Part shown: positions 11,387-20,188 of the stretch, one piece after another
Position numbering within the stretch: the stretch's first letter is position 1
How the letters are laid out: each line of letters begins with the position of its first letter
Source: Gemmatimonadaceae bacterium
Lineage (GTDB): Bacteria; Gemmatimonadota; Gemmatimonadetes; Gemmatimonadales; Gemmatimonadaceae
Direction: 5' to 3'
NCBI GenBank assembly: GCA_011525845.1
Contig: WYBP01000020.1
Span: 310,001 to 374,000 of the forward strand
Length of the DNA: 64,000 nucleotides
Position numbers and translations under genes: made by a program
The notes under the pieces: model-generated
Databases searched by the model: none
Told to the model about the DNA's origin: nothing
What the model saw: the letters and a program-made list of their open reading frames with translations, nothing else

Positions 11387-12541
11387 ATGCGATCCGGACT
11401 CCCCTCGCTCGCCGCGCTCTTCCTGCGGCTCGGCACGACGGCGTTCGGCGGTCCCGCGGCGCACATCGCGATGATGGAGGACGAGGTCGTGCGCCGGCGC
11501 GGCTGGCTCACGCGCGAGGAGTTCCTCGACCTCGTCGGCGCGACGCACCTGATTCCGGGACCGAACTCCACCGAGCTCGCGATCCACATCGGCCACCGTC
11601 GCGCCGGCTGGCCCGGCCTCCTCGTGGCCGGCCTCAGCTTCATCCTGCCCGCGATGATGATCGTCTGGCTCGTGGCCTGGGGCTACGTGCGGTACGGGCA
11701 GCTCCCGGCCGTCGGCGGGGTCCTCGCGGGGGTGAAGCCGGTGGTGGTCGCCATCATCGCGCACGCCCTCTGGACGCTGGGGCGCACGGCGCTCAAGTCG
11801 GCGCTCACCAGCGCGATCGGCGTCGCGGCCTTCCTCGCGGTGCTCCTCGGCACGCACGAGCTCGTGGCGCTCGCCCTCGCCGGGATGATCGGGGCCCTGG
11901 ACGTGCGGCTCACGGCGGGCGGACTTCCTCCCCTCCCGGTCCTGGTCGCCGCACCCCTGCCGCAGGGCGATGCAGTCGCCGGTGTCGGGACCGCCGTCGG
12001 AGCCGCGCTGGCCGCCACCTTGCCGGCGCTCTTCCTGGTCTTCCTGAAGGCCGGGAGCTTCCTCTTCGGCAGCGGCTACGTCCTCGTCGCCTTCCTGCAC
12101 TCGGATCTCGTGGTCCGGCTGGGATGGCTCACCGAGCCGCAACTGCTCGATGCGATCGCGGTGGGACAGTTCACGCCGGGCCCCGTCTTCACGACGGCGA
12201 CCTTCATCGGGTACCTGCTGGCCGGCCACGCGGGCGCGCTCTGGGCGACCCTCGGGATCTTCCTCCCGGCCTTCGTGTTCGTCGCGCTGAGCGCTCCGCT
12301 CCTGCCGCGGCTCCGGACGAGCGACATCCTCGGAGGCGCACTCGACGGGGTGAACGTGGCGTCGCTCGCGCTGATGGCCGCCGTCTGCCTCCCGCTGGCA
12401 TCCGACGCGGTGGGCGGCACGCTCGGCGTCCTCCCCGCGGCCGCGCTCGGCATCGCCGCCCTGGCACTGCTGGCGCGCTGGCGCGTGAACGCGGCGTGGC
12501 TGATCCTCGGCGGCGCGCTGGTCGGGTGGGTCGCGGGTTGA
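11387..12541 (+). CDS. chrA: Chromate transporter, two-domain ChrA type
   Basis: This 384-residue inner-membrane protein contains two homologous halves. The first has FLRLGTTAFGGPAAHIAMM, RGWLTREEFLDLV and ATHLIPGPNSTELAIHIG; the second has FLKAGSFLFGSGYVLVAFL, LGWLTEPQLLDAIAVGQFTPGPV and FIGYLLAG. This is the CHR family, which exports chromate or related oxyanions. TAGTTT lies exactly 6 bases before the ATG, suggesting a leaderless transcript. Substrate specificity cannot be read from sequence. Its stop codon overlaps the -35 box of the next transcription unit. Confidence 0.9.
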   Translation: MRSGLPSLAALFLRLGTTAFGGPAAHIAMMEDEVVRRRGWLTREEFLDLVGATHLIPGPNSTELAIHIGHRRAGWPGLLVAGLSFILPAMMIVWLVAWGYVRYGQLPAVGGVLAGVKPVVVAIIAHALWTLGRTALKSALTSAIGVAAFLAVLLGTHELVALALAGMIGALDVRLTAGGLPPLPVLVAAPLPQGDAVAGVGTAVGAALAATLPALFLVFLKAGSFLFGSGYVLVAFLHSDLVVRLGWLTEPQLLDAIAVGQFTPGPVFTTATFIGYLLAGHAGALWATLGIFLPAFVFVALSAPLLPRLRTSDILGGALDGVNVASLALMAAVCLPLASDAVGGTLGVLPAAALGIAALALLARWRVNAAWLILGGALVGWVAG

Positions 12542-12567
12542 CGGGCGCGAGGGCGGTCCCCTACATT
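12538..12567 (+). promoter_or_regulatory. Sigma-70 type promoter for the phhA leader
   Basis: TTGACG (12538-12543), an 18-base spacer and TACATT (12562-12567) form a good vegetative promoter. The expected transcription start, about 7 bases after the -10 box, coincides with the ATG of the 30-codon leader ORF at 12574. The -35 box overlaps the chrA stop codon. Confidence 0.7.
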
Positions 12568-12573
12568 GCGGCC

Positions 12574-12666
12574 ATGCCCCGCACCGCCGCCGGCCTGACC
12601 ACCGCCTACGCGAGCTATTACGCGCCCCCTGACACGGGACGTGGACCGAGGCGTGTGCGCGCGTAG
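12574..12666 (+). CDS. 30-residue tyrosine-codon leader peptide upstream of phhA
   Basis: The short frame ATG 12574 to TAG 12664-12666 encodes 30 residues with three Tyr codons in five positions (TAC at 12607, TAT at 12616, TAC at 12619; peptide segment AYASYYAPP) and no Phe codon. It begins at the predicted transcript start, is followed by alternative hairpins, and precedes a gene whose enzyme makes tyrosine. By analogy with amino-acid leader peptides, ribosome stalling at the Tyr codons would report the supply of charged tRNA-Tyr. Function is inferred from layout. Confidence 0.65.
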   Translation: MPRTAAGLTTAYASYYAPPDTGRGPRRVRA

Positions 12667-12719
12667 AGAGCGACCTCCGAGTTCCCGCGGCCCGTGGATC
12701 CCCACGGGCCGCTTTTTTT
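12619..12719 (+). terminator. Attenuator: mutually exclusive hairpins ending in a Rho-independent terminator
   Basis: The terminator has an 11-bp perfect stem (GCGGCCCGTGG 12687-12697 with 12702-12712), a 4-base loop and seven T residues (12713-12719), and sits 25 bases before phhA. Upstream, TACGCGC (12619-12625, starting at the last Tyr codon) pairs perfectly with GCGCGTA (12659-12665), enclosing ACACG/CGTGT (12632-12636 / 12652-12656). CACGGG (12633-12638), part of that hairpin, can instead pair with CCCGTG (12691-12696) of the terminator stem. A ribosome stalled on the Tyr codons would mask the first arm, free CACGGG and prevent termination. Confidence 0.65.
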
Positions 12720-12744
12720 CGTCCCCTCGTCCCAGGAGTGACCG

Positions 12745-13509
12745 ATGTCCGCCCCCGCACGCCCCGCCCCGAGCCCCCGTACGCCAAGCGACGACCTGCC
12801 GGAGTTCCTCGCGCAGGACCACGCGCGCTACACCGCCGAGGACCATGAGGTCTGGCGCCTGCTCGCCGCGCGCCGGACCGAGGCGCTCGAGCGCACCGCG
12901 AGCCGCGTCTTCCTCGATGGGATGTCGGGGATCGGCCTCTCGAGCGACCGCGTCCCGGACCTCGAAGACGTGAACCGCCGGCTCGCCGCGCGCACCGGGT
13001 GGAGCGCCGTCGGGGTCGGCGGCTTCATCCCCGCCCCGCAGTTCTTCCGCTGCCTCGCGGCGCGGCGATTCCCCACGACGCTCACCGTGCGCCCGCGCGC
13101 GCAGCTCGACTACCTCCCGGAACCCGACATCTTCCACGACGTGTTCGGGCACGTGCCGCTCCACGCGGACCCCACCTTCGCGGCGTTCCTGCAGCGCTTC
13201 GGCGCGCTCGCCGCCGCGGCGCGCACCGCGCCCGAGGTGGAGCGGATGGCGCGGCTCTTCTGGTTCACCGTGGAGTTCGGGTTGGTCCGCGAGCGCGGCG
13301 AGGTGCGCATCTACGGCAGCGGGCTGATCTCCTCGGCGGGGGACGCCGAGAACGCCCTCGGCCCCGCCTGCGACCGGCGGCCCTTCTCGCTCGAAGCCGT
13401 GGTCGCGCAGCCCTTCGTGATCGACCGGCTGCAGGAGACGCTCTTCGTGGTGGACTCGTTCGACCAGCTCTTCGAGGCCGTGGACCGGCTCGCCCTCGGA
13501 GCGACGTGA
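12745..13509 (+). CDS. phhA: Phenylalanine-4-hydroxylase
   Basis: The 254-residue enzyme is a bacterial aromatic amino acid hydroxylase that converts phenylalanine to tyrosine with iron, oxygen and a pterin. The iron ligands are visible as H131 and H136 (DIFHDVFGHVPL) and E177 (FWFTVEFGL). GGFIPAPQFFRCLAAR, LDYLPEPD and YGSGLISSAGD are also family hallmarks. No N-terminal ACT regulatory domain is present, as usual in bacteria. AGGAG lies 6 bases before the ATG. Control by the preceding Tyr-codon attenuator is inferred. Confidence 0.95.
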   Translation: MSAPARPAPSPRTPSDDLPEFLAQDHARYTAEDHEVWRLLAARRTEALERTASRVFLDGMSGIGLSSDRVPDLEDVNRRLAARTGWSAVGVGGFIPAPQFFRCLAARRFPTTLTVRPRAQLDYLPEPDIFHDVFGHVPLHADPTFAAFLQRFGALAAAARTAPEVERMARLFWFTVEFGLVRERGEVRIYGSGLISSAGDAENALGPACDRRPFSLEAVVAQPFVIDRLQETLFVVDSFDQLFEAVDRLALGAT

Positions 13510-13515
13510 GCGTCG

Positions 13516-13845
13516 CTAGCGCACCGCGTGCGGGCCGCTGACGTCGCGTGCGACGCGGATCACGCGCCCCGTCATCTGGCCCGAGGTCTGCGCGGCGAAC
13601 TCGGCCATGTGCGGGGCCGCGAGGTGCGCGGCGAGCGCGGCCTCGTTCGTCCACTTCTCGATCACGAGGAGCACGTCCGGGCGCGGCGGCGTCTGCGCCG
13701 CCAGCGCCGTGGGGACCTCGAGGGCGCCTCCGTACTCGAGGCAACCCTCCTCGGCCCGGACCAGGGGCTCGAGGCGGCGGAACGCTGAGAGGAACGCGTC
13801 GCGCGCACCCGCCGCGATGGTCAGTTCAGCGATCACGTGGATCAT
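13516..13845 (-). CDS. Antibiotic biosynthesis monooxygenase (ABM) domain protein, putative quinol monooxygenase
   Basis: This 109-residue single-domain protein begins MIHVIAELTIAAGARDAFL and contains EEGCLEYG and a central VLLVIEKWTNEAALAAHLAAPHM, the pattern of ferredoxin-fold ABM/YgiN proteins that work as cofactor-free monooxygenases or heme-related enzymes. It is convergent with phhA (6 bases between stops) and has no operon partner. The substrate is unknown. Confidence 0.85.
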   Translation of the reverse strand: MIHVIAELTIAAGARDAFLSAFRRLEPLVRAEEGCLEYGGALEVPTALAAQTPPRPDVLLVIEKWTNEAALAAHLAAPHMAEFAAQTSGQMTGRVIRVARDVSGPHAVR

Positions 13846-15814: not shown

Positions 15815-15887
<73 letters not shown>

Positions 15888-17279: not shown

Positions 17280-17938
17280 TGTTCACCCAGATCCTGAGGA
17301 CCCAGTTCAAGGTCACGCGCACCCTCGTGGCCGCCTTCGCGGTGACCACCTTCGCGGCGCCGGCGCTCGCCTGGCGGATCGGCGCCTCGGGCGGGTATCC
17401 CGGCACGCCGAGCGCGCTCGCGGTCCGCGCCGGGTTCGAGCCGGTGGGGCTCATCCTCATGAGCGCCGCCTGCCTGCTCGGGTTCCTCCTCGTGGCGGTC
17501 CCGTGGAACGTGGACGGCGCGTCGCGCCACGTGTATCCGCTCTCGCTCCCACTCCCGTGGAGGCGGTACGTCTCGATGCGATTCGGTGCGGGGGCGCTCC
17601 TCCTCCTGCTGCCGGTGCTGTCCCTCTGGCTCGGCGCGCTGGTCACGCTCGCGCTCATGGAGCTTCCGGCCACGCTGCGCGCCTATCCGGGCGGGCTCGC
17701 GATCCGCTTCGGCTTCGCCTCGCTCCTCGTCTATGCCTTCACCTTCCTGCTCCAGTACCTCGCCGGTCGGCGGGCGCCGGTGATCCTGCTGGTGCTGCTG
17801 ATCGTCGTGGCGGCCGTCGGCGTGCTGGGTGCGGCGGTCGGCGCCGGACGCGGTGCTGAGCAGTTCTTCCGCCTGATCACCGAGTGGCCGGGCCCGCTCT
17901 CGATCTTCGCCGCGGAGTGGAGGCTCGTCGATGTCTGA
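17279..17938 (+). CDS. ABC transporter membrane subunit (putative permease)
   Basis: The 219-residue protein has about six hydrophobic segments (around residues 15-32, 57-77, 105-130, 138-160, 165-185 and a weaker last one) and no soluble domain. It starts one base inside the ATPase stop, so it is the likely transmembrane partner. No family-specific motif is recognised, and the call rests on topology and context. Confidence 0.7.
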   Translation: MFTQILRTQFKVTRTLVAAFAVTTFAAPALAWRIGASGGYPGTPSALAVRAGFEPVGLILMSAACLLGFLLVAVPWNVDGASRHVYPLSLPLPWRRYVSMRFGAGALLLLLPVLSLWLGALVTLALMELPATLRAYPGGLAIRFGFASLLVYAFTFLLQYLAGRRAPVILLVLLIVVAAVGVLGAAVGAGRGAEQFFRLITEWPGPLSIFAAEWRLVDV

Positions 17939-19058
17939 GCGTCGCGCCCTCGCGTGCGCGGTGGGCGCAGCGTTCGTGCTCGCGCTCGTGGCGGGCACCC
18001 CATCCGCGCTCCCGGCGCAGTCCGCCGACTCGCTGCGTGCGCGGCTCGGGCGCGTCAGCGCGGCCCGGGCGCTTGCGGACACCACCGTCCGGCGCCTGGA
18101 ACAGGAGCGGCGTGCGCGACGCACCGCGCGGATCAGGTCCGGAGGGCGCACGGTGGCCTACGATCCAGCGCTGCTGACCCCGGAGGACTCGGGCGGGATC
18201 GCCGCGGGCCTCGCCCTCGGCCTGGACCGGTTGGTCGAGCGATTCGGAGAGGAGGGACGCACGCTGGTCGATTCGGCCACCTGGGTCGCCGTGGGGATCC
18301 CGTGGTGGTTCGGCCAGCGGCGTGTCGAGCTGCGCACGGCGACGTCGGGCGCCGCCGAGTCGCTCCACCTCCCGCGGCCGCTCGACCCCGAGCGGGTCGC
18401 GAGATTCGTGCTGCAGGCGGCGGGCGCCTCGCTCGCGCCGAGCTCCCCGGCGCTCAGTGCGTGGTCCCCCTGGTCGGTCTCGCTGGCGGGCGAGGAGGTG
18501 CGGTTCGCCGAGGCGGGGCGTGAACTGGCGCTCTCCTGGGCCGCCGTCGGGCGGCGATGCAGCGCGGGATCGGCCCTTGCCTGCCGACGGGCCCTCGAGC
18601 CGGTGCCCGGCGAGGACCGCCTCGGTCTACTGTTCGACGCGAGCGACTGGCGTGCGGTCGTCACCGCGAGCCCGCTCCCGGCTCTCACCGACTCGATCTT
18701 CTTCTCCCGTCGCCGCGCCTGCCTCGCGGGCGACGACCCGGCGTGTGCGCAGATCGTCGCCCGACTCACGCCACCGGATCCGTTCTCGGGCGGGATGCGG
18801 GCGACTCTCATCATGCACGCGATCGACCTCGGCGGGCGCGACGCCCTCCGGCGGTTCCGCTCGTCGACGGAGCGGGAACCCGTGCCCCTGCTCGCGGAGG
18901 TCGCCGGGGTCTCCGAGGACTCGCTGATCATGAGCTGGCAGCGGCGCACGGCGGTCGCGCTCGCCGCGGAGCGTCGCGGGGCGATCCCGCTCTCCCTCTC
19001 GGTGGCCGGCTGGACCCTGCTGCTCCTGGGTGGCGCGACCTTCCGGAGACCGCGATGA
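17931..19058 (+). CDS. Membrane-anchored protein of unknown function with CxxGxxxAC motifs (first of a pair)
   Basis: The 375-residue protein has an N-terminal signal segment (residues about 6-30), a long soluble region presumably outside the inner membrane, and a C-terminal membrane segment (about 352-370) ending in RRPR. Two copies of the spacing C-x2-G-x3-A-C are seen (CSAGSALAC and CLAGDDPAC). The region before the C-terminal anchor (GMRATLIMHAIDLGGRDALRRF, SEDSLIMSWQRR) resembles the helical tail of M1/MA-clan peptidase-like proteins, but no HExxH motif exists. It overlaps the permease gene by 8 bases and the next gene by 4. Function unknown. Confidence 0.65.
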   Translation: MSERRALACAVGAAFVLALVAGTPSALPAQSADSLRARLGRVSAARALADTTVRRLEQERRARRTARIRSGGRTVAYDPALLTPEDSGGIAAGLALGLDRLVERFGEEGRTLVDSATWVAVGIPWWFGQRRVELRTATSGAAESLHLPRPLDPERVARFVLQAAGASLAPSSPALSAWSPWSVSLAGEEVRFAEAGRELALSWAAVGRRCSAGSALACRRALEPVPGEDRLGLLFDASDWRAVVTASPLPALTDSIFFSRRRACLAGDDPACAQIVARLTPPDPFSGGMRATLIMHAIDLGGRDALRRFRSSTEREPVPLLAEVAGVSEDSLIMSWQRRTAVALAAERRGAIPLSLSVAGWTLLLLGGATFRRPR

Positions 19059-20188
19059 GCGCCGGTTGGCGTGTGGCGGTGGCGACGGTGCTGCTCGCCC
19101 TGGGCGCCGTCGTGTTGCTCGTGCCGGGTGCGGAGCCCGTCGAGAGGGATTGGTTCGTGGGGTGGTATCCCGAGGACCCGGAACTCGAGTCGGCGGCCCG
19201 GCGGCGGTGGGCGATCGGCCGGACGGAGGCCGCGCTCGCGGAGGCGCTGGACCGCGTCGATGCTCGGGAGCGTGCGCGGGCCGCGCGCCGGGGTGCCAGC
19301 CCAGGGCTCAGCTTCCGGATGGACCCGGCGATCCCCGCGCCGCTCCGCTCAGAGATCGAGCGTGCTGCACGGGACGAGACCGCGGCCGCTGGACACGGGG
19401 CACCGCGCCACCCGGTGGTGGTGGTCGCCGCGATGGCCGATGACTCCCGGACTTCCCGCTACATGCGCTGGGTGGTGCTCCCTGAAGAGGCGGCGGACCC
19501 CTGCGTCGTCCTCTTCCGCTTCTCCCCCGCATCGATCGCGACCGAGCGGCTCGCGGTCACCGACCGCGCGCTCGGGACCTGCGCGTTCTATGCGGCGTTC
19601 GGCACTCCGGGTTCGCGGATGAGCGCCTGGCTGCGATCCACGGGGCTGCGCAGTGCGGGATACCTCCTGCCGCCGGCGGCGATCGCGGACGACACCGCGC
19701 GCCTCGCCATCTCGCGCACCACGAGCGGCTCGACCTCGCTGGGCCTTCGGGCCTGCGCGGCGGGGCGGTCGGAGGCGTGCCGGGGGCTCTTCTCGCCGGA
19801 GCGTGACCGGCTCCGGTCCCTGCGCTGGGATGCCCTCTCCTGGAGTCCGCCGCCGATCGTGGAGACGGACGAAGTGGCGGCCTACTCCTCGACGATCCTC
19901 TCATCCGAGTTCTCGCGCGTCACATACGGACTCCTCTCCGCGATGGCGACGGCGGTCGGCCCGGCGCAGTTCGAGTCCGTGTGGCGGAGCGCCCAGCCGC
20001 CGGACGAGGCCTTCCAGGAGCAGATGGGCGAGCCGATCGAGGCCTGGCTGCGGCGCCACGTCGCCGCCCGGATCGAGCCGTTTCACGCCGGGGCGATGCC
20101 GCCGGCCTCACGGGTGCTCGCGGTGATCGCGCTCATCGCGGCGGCGAGCGCCGCGGGCATCGGCTGGGCGCCGCGCCGGGTGAGCTGA
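19055..20188 (+). CDS. Membrane-anchored protein of unknown function with CxxGxxxAC motif (second of the pair)
   Basis: ATG 19055 (ATGA overlap) gives 377 residues with a signal anchor at about 5-25, a soluble domain and a C-terminal membrane segment (about 348-368). It shares with its neighbour the motif C-x2-G-x3-A-C (CAAGRSEAC) and an M1/MA-peptidase-like tail (YGLLSAMATAVGPAQFESVW, then EAWLRRHVAARI), again without zinc ligands, so the two look like diverged paralogues. As last gene of the YtrA-ABC operon it may be a substrate-binding or envelope partner of the transporter. Function unknown. Confidence 0.65.
   Translation: MSAGWRVAVATVLLALGAVVLLVPGAEPVERDWFVGWYPEDPELESAARRRWAIGRTEAALAEALDRVDARERARAARRGASPGLSFRMDPAIPAPLRSEIERAARDETAAAGHGAPRHPVVVVAAMADDSRTSRYMRWVVLPEEAADPCVVLFRFSPASIATERLAVTDRALGTCAFYAAFGTPGSRMSAWLRSTGLRSAGYLLPPAAIADDTARLAISRTTSGSTSLGLRACAAGRSEACRGLFSPERDRLRSLRWDALSWSPPPIVETDEVAAYSSTILSSEFSRVTYGLLSAMATAVGPAQFESVWRSAQPPDEAFQEQMGEPIEAWLRRHVAARIEPFHAGAMPPASRVLAVIALIAAASAAGIGWAPRRVS

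Follow-up and report, generated by a model that had tools for sequence, protein, structure and literature searches.

Phenylalanine hydroxylase makes tyrosine from phenylalanine, and the question raised by this locus is whether its gene, phhA, is switched on by a shortage of its own product, sensed through the translation of a short upstream reading frame. The first-pass annotation of the window (the whole stretch of 64,000 nucleotides of Gemmatimonadaceae DNA that was analysed) had read the region in front of phhA as an attenuator governed by Tyr codons. This reading is supported by the comparison of sequences from relatives, which revealed recurrent Tyr codons, covarying pairings and sibling leaders matched to the pathways of other genes, and on these grounds we consider it highly probable that a tyrosine-specific, ribosome-mediated transcription attenuator controls phhA.

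The coordinates of the features are collected in Table 1; those given in the annotation proved to be right. The identity of phhA given by the annotation was borne out by a score of 301 bits against NCBIfam NF008877 (cut-off 247) and by a match to the Pfam Biopterin_H domain. No co-directional gene lies directly 3' of phhA; a small protein with an antibiotic-biosynthesis-monooxygenase (ABM) domain is encoded convergently with it, on the minus strand (13516-13845), and a tRNA gene (Rfam, 66.9 bits) is found further on, at 15815-15887 of the same minus strand. On the 5' side, the chromate transporter gene chrA ends at position 12541 on the strand of phhA, with its stop codon overlapped by the promoter. 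The latter had been placed correctly, and no other sigma-70-like site was found between 12000 and 13000. The leader open reading frame (ORF) likewise proved to be as described, with three Tyr codons (codons 12, 15 and 16) and no Phe codon. Its ATG follows the end of the -10 box by 6 nt and is not preceded by a Shine-Dalgarno sequence, while phhA itself has one, and because of these two properties the leader mRNA is probably leaderless, with transcription starting at or next to the ATG. In the relatives the -35 box has the form TTGACR, the -10 box mostly lies 6-8 nt ahead of the leader ATG (28 of 39 leaders), and a Shine-Dalgarno sequence before the leader ORF is absent from all 39 phhA leaders.

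Table 1. Features of the phhA leader region, in window coordinates.
Feature	Position	Strand	Basis
Sigma-70-like promoter TTGACG-N18-TACATT	12538..12567	+	single site in 12000-13000; shuffle mean 0.0
Promoter boxes: TTGACG, 18-nt spacer, TACATT	12538-12543, 12562-12567	+	read from sequence
Leader peptide ORF, 30 codons: MPRTAAGLTTAYASYYAPPDTGRGPRRVRA, then stop	12574..12666	+	arrangement recurs in relatives
Regulatory Tyr codons TAC, TAT, TAC	12607-12609, 12616-12618, 12619-12621	+	sequence and residue counts of 39 leaders
Competing (protector) hairpin CGCG-C-CCC (12621-12628) / GGG-A-CGTG (12636-12643)	12621..12643	+	88.8% pairing
Antiterminator 5' strand (element 2) CACGGGACG, within leader ORF	12633..12641	+	90.6% pairing with 12688-12696
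Antiterminator 3' strand (element 3) CGGCCCGTG, shared with terminator 5' arm	12688..12696	+	covariation
Intrinsic terminator GCGGCCCGTGG-ATCC-CCACGGGCCGC-T7; 11-bp stem 12687-12697/12702-12712, T7 12713-12719	12687..12719	+	covariation in relatives
Shine-Dalgarno AGGAG of phhA	12734..12738	+	read from sequence
phhA, phenylalanine 4-monooxygenase (Phe to Tyr)	12745..13509	+	NCBIfam NF008877, Pfam PF00351 Biopterin_H

The relatives were collected by using PhhA to search the genus, 394 genomes of the class and GTDB contigs, after which the DNA upstream of the gene was compared. Thirty-nine distinct phhA loci were found to exhibit the same order of promoter, ORF, Tyr codons, antiterminator element, terminator and phhA, and all of them come from Gemmatimonadota, except for three contigs filed as Acidobacteriales. 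The latter (L045:2849-2953, L046:1681-1787 and L047:2842-2946) carry a Gemmatimonadota-type phhA with a complete leader, which may reflect either horizontal transfer or wrong binning. All leaders have an in-frame start and stop, although their sequences are diverse. The annotation had proposed to look for conserved Tyr codons in an alignment of such upstream regions, and they are present in all 39 leaders found, with two to six per leader; the detector demanded at least two Tyr codons, a possible bias that is partly offset by the model search, described below, of regions upstream of phhA in which no leader had been detected. Pooled over the 39 leaders, whose peptides were picked by hand from the leader lists (which we declare as another possible source of bias), Tyr accounts for 136 of 987 residues (13.8%) and Phe for 11 of 987.

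A covariance model, hereafter R1, was built from 38 phhA leaders only, including that of the window, which it scores at 90.8 bits. Applied to 76 regions upstream of phhA without a leader, it produced no match above 10 bits, and among the phhA upstream regions we found none that has the scaffold and lacks the Tyr leader. Distant clades of phhA, at about 50% identity, have no leader, nor have some close ones; on the PhhA tree its distribution requires 5 changes, compared to 15.9 in shuffles. A second clade of phhA in the same class (L122-L187), about 50% identical and with longer open frames, has no leader of the R1 type and may have another role or another mode of regulation.

Three mutually exclusive helices are supported by the alignment of 38 phhA leaders: a terminator, an antiterminator and a hairpin that competes with the latter. 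The terminator, an 11-bp stem with seven T residues that stops 25 nt short of the phhA ATG, was described correctly in the annotation; 98.7% of its alignment cells are paired, 28 are changed on both sides, and none of 500 shuffles scored as high. The annotation had also pointed out that CACGGG (12633-12638) can pair with CCCGTG (12691-12696) of the terminator. This pairing is present and belongs to an antiterminator that covaries among the relatives, with 90.6% of cells paired, 10 changed on both sides and again no shuffle out of 500 as high; controls in which the strands were slid reached 28-43% for the antiterminator, and 28-47% for the antiterminator and the terminator taken together. Compensatory changes, which the annotation had suggested looking for, were found in the terminator and in the antiterminator, so that neither outcome named there as speaking against an attenuator (relatives devoid of Tyr codons, or pairing that is not conserved) was observed, and in two leaders (L047 and L041) the helix strands were changed in concert. 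The competing hairpin has 88.8% of cells paired and 14 changed on both sides (not equalled in 500 shuffles; slid controls 21-46%); its 5' arm starts inside the last Tyr codon and its conserved form is CGCGnCCC/GGGnCGYG. A different hairpin, TACGCGC (12619-12625)/GCGCGTA (12659-12665), had been singled out in the annotation; it does exist in the window, but it is not conserved, being absent from most relatives, and it was rejected as a general protector in favour of CGCGnCCC/GGGnCGYG. RNAalifold on its own reports the terminator alone, as expected, because the helices are mutually exclusive. A divergent sub-type of the leader (L028, L031 and L041) encodes YRSYR...SGSC peptides and has a terminator of the GCCTCCG/CGGGGGC type, with the antiterminator altered to match.

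The placement of the Tyr codons was analysed for 37 leaders by equilibrium folding of nascent RNA that was truncated ahead of the 3' arm of the terminator and carried an imposed ribosome footprint. In most phhA leaders the GGG of element 2 follows the last Tyr codon at a distance of 17 nt. For stalls at the five codons that end with the last Tyr codon the antiterminator comprised about 8 bp on average; the mean was 7.96 bp when the last Tyr codon occupied the A site and fell to 3.24 bp one codon further and to 0.45 bp two codons further, and a ribosome on element 2 left no antiterminator pairs at all (mean of the 37 leaders). The stalled state had more antiterminator pairs than the ribosome-free RNA in 34 of the 37 leaders, and three did not follow that order. 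In the model, the last Tyr codon is therefore the final stall position that would leave the antiterminator free. The window leader exhibits the same pattern as the average one, but a modest version of it with fewer pairs (0.18 bp at 12607, 3.65 at 12616, 2.19 at 12619 and 0.00 at 12622). The competing hairpin by itself fails to prevent the antiterminator, which wins at equilibrium, so a need for that hairpin does not follow from the model, and the off state must therefore rest on the passage of the ribosome and on kinetics; the role of the competing hairpin would be kinetic, or would come into play when translation is absent.

We propose that transcription would start on the leader ATG itself or close beside it. 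A ribosome would then begin to translate the 30-codon leader. With plentiful charged tRNA-Tyr the ribosome would pass the Tyr codons and cover element 2, the terminator would form, and transcription would stop ahead of phhA. With charged tRNA-Tyr scarce, the ribosome would stall on the Tyr codons and cover the 5' arm of the competing hairpin, leaving element 2 just beyond its footprint; element 2, thus free, would pair with the 5' arm of the terminator, and phhA would be transcribed, to make Tyr from Phe. What the sequences show is the architecture with its conservation and covariation, the agreement of codons and pathway, and the geometry of the footprint; from these we infer the leaderless start, the coupling, the choice of termination or read-through and a dependence on Tyr. 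Four hallmarks of a leader-peptide attenuator were found, namely an ORF with codons for the pathway, an intrinsic terminator, a covarying antiterminator and codons placed for a stall, the last of these in the equilibrium model and less markedly for the leader of the window than on average.

The scaffold is not restricted to phhA. R1 matches occur in 155 of the 394 genomes of the class, and the stronger ones outside phhA (loci L221-L259 and L261-L299) precede genes of amino-acid metabolism, with the codons of the leader tracking the pathway of the gene. Matches below about 35 bits include plain terminators lacking a leader (L108, L070, L274-L276 and L300) and were left out of the codon statistics, and the frames of the sibling leaders were selected by their Y/F/W/H count and the peptides again picked by hand, declared possible biases in the following numbers. 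Nine leaders before prephenate dehydratase (pheA) contain 38 Phe and 3 Tyr codons, with Phe exceeding Tyr in all nine; 32 leaders before DAHP synthase, often followed by tyrA, contain 102 Tyr and 56 Phe; and three before TyrA or chorismate mutase-TyrA contain 11 Tyr and 1 Phe. In seven leaders of HisG/HisD, His makes up 46 of 179 residues, and in four leaders of the bifunctional aspartokinase-homoserine dehydrogenase (thrA), Thr makes up 41 of 113, two of them having seven Thr in a row. The antiterminator is paired in 91.3% of cells in 54 non-phhA leaders (slid controls 32-43%), in an alignment whose fit was guided by the terminator and the competing hairpin and made no use of the antiterminator. 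A spacing of 17 nt was found again in seven of the nine Phe leaders and in 15 of the 21 leaders of Tyr operons examined. We slightly favour the view that one ancestral, apparently leaderless cassette (control codons - CGnCCC - CACGGGCCG - terminator) has been copied among the amino-acid operons of Gemmatimonadota and re-coded for Tyr, Phe, His or Thr while the RNA switch was kept, phhA having the Tyr-only version. In the genome of the window, phhA carries the sole clearly R1-detected scaffold; the DAHP synthase-tyrA operon of that genome (L305; G000:C13, about 17832-19445, minus strand) lies directly behind a different gene and has no attenuator.

These data bear on other ways of reading the locus. 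The hairpin could be just the terminator of the upstream chrA, and the Tyr-rich ORF a chance frame, as the two genes lie on the same strand with chrA ending at 12541, and the terminator would also halt read-through from chrA. However, genomes with quite different sequence further upstream have this terminator and Tyr leader in front of phhA as well, the share of Tyr among the leader residues (13.8%) is hard to reconcile with chance, and a covarying antiterminator is unexpected for a bare terminator. The comparative data thus argue strongly against such a terminator, and we regard it as extremely improbable. Alternatively, the Tyr codons could act as specifiers of a T-box that binds tRNA-Tyr, or the RNA could be some other riboswitch and not a translated leader; T-boxes are generally known to regulate aromatic amino acid genes in Firmicutes. 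This we consider very improbable, given that no T-box match was obtained in 12500-12760 at E values up to 10, that 20 sibling loci returned nothing at the gathering thresholds except one tRNA, that the scaffold is just about 150 nt long, and that all leaders have an ORF framed by a start and a stop, several Tyr codons and a spacing of promoter and ATG compatible with a leaderless start.

A translated leader might also sense something other than charged tRNA-Tyr, i.e. arrest by the nascent peptide, Phe, or general translation stress. Arrest peptides are generally known to exist, and a C-terminal TGR..RR.R pattern is common to the leader peptides. These common residues, however, are what the conserved RNA elements ACGGGxCG and GGAGGCGTRTGCGC encode, and elsewhere the peptides differ; the codon content is the part that varies between loci and tracks the pathway, and Phe is almost absent from the phhA leaders. 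Such a signal is therefore very improbable in our judgement, and the attenuator that responds to charged tRNA-Tyr remains the preferred explanation.

To our knowledge, Trp, Phe, His, Thr, Leu and Ile/Val are the amino acids that have classical attenuators. The E. coli thr operon is governed by a leader-peptide attenuator. The same is true of trpL, pheL and pheST (PMC11802643) and of the his leader (PMC3896937). Like these E. coli systems (trp, his, thr, pheA and pheST), the phhA leader comprises a peptide rich in the regulatory residue, mutually exclusive hairpins and an intrinsic terminator ahead of the structural gene, and is proposed to be off when the charged tRNA is plentiful. Unlike them, it uses Tyr as the sole regulatory residue and phhA as the target, it has no Shine-Dalgarno sequence and its ATG is apparently at the 5' end of the transcript, and here one RNA scaffold is common to Tyr, Phe, His and Thr leaders. 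Neither the Rfam amino-acid leader families (Phe, His, Thr, Trp and Leu) nor any other Rfam family matched the leader in the window and in 20 sibling loci. The AroR leader of Corynebacterium glutamicum, as summarized in PMC11802643 (Neshat et al. 2014), has Phe-Tyr-Phe before aroF (DAHP synthase) and responds to Phe, Tyr availability reportedly being without effect. It is similar in being an attenuator of an aromatic operon with a Tyr codon, and comes close to the mixed Tyr/Phe leaders that were found above in front of DAHP synthase, but it differs from the phhA leader of the window, which has three Tyr, no Phe and a different target. Mycobacterial polycysteine ORFs are leaderless attenuator ORFs (Canestrari et al. 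2020, cited in PMC13236596); compared by this description, they are likewise small leaderless ORFs with repeated regulatory codons that control a downstream gene, but with another amino acid, other genes and in another phylum. Our search of full texts brought up no account of a leader-peptide attenuator with Tyr alone, of attenuation of phhA, of this scaffold or of an attenuator in Gemmatimonadota, an absence that is weak evidence because the search covered open-access texts only. The mechanism is classical, and as far as could be checked the specificity, the target and the shared, re-coded scaffold are new.

The phhA leaders carry Tyr and not Phe, and therefore it is the product of the enzyme that would be sensed, not its substrate, which fits a biosynthetic role of this phhA. 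According to the sections of PMC7311316 that concern it, phhA makes tyrosine in Dyella japonica, Echinicola vietnamensis and Legionella, and tyrosine synthesis is the physiological logic required for a switch that responds to Tyr starvation; an attenuator is not described in those sections. A PDH_N (TyrA) match is present in 13 of 30 genomes with a leader-bearing phhA, compared to 252 of the 394 genomes of the class (Fisher p 0.018, uncorrected for kinship and with weak PDH_N matches uncertain), a suggestive link of the leader to the absence of TyrA, from which the genome of the window, with its own tyrA, departs.

The proposed link from tyrosine shortage to phenylalanine hydroxylase argues, on regulatory grounds, for a biosynthetic function of this clade of phhA in bacteria that are mostly known here from metagenome assemblies alone. 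A tyrosine attenuator, if true, fills a gap in the classical set. Moreover, the sibling leaders form a natural set in which the switch is constant and the control codons vary, so that the share of codon identity in the specificity of attenuators becomes directly testable, and the codon content of a leader would predict which amino acid its operon responds to, as an aid to annotation.
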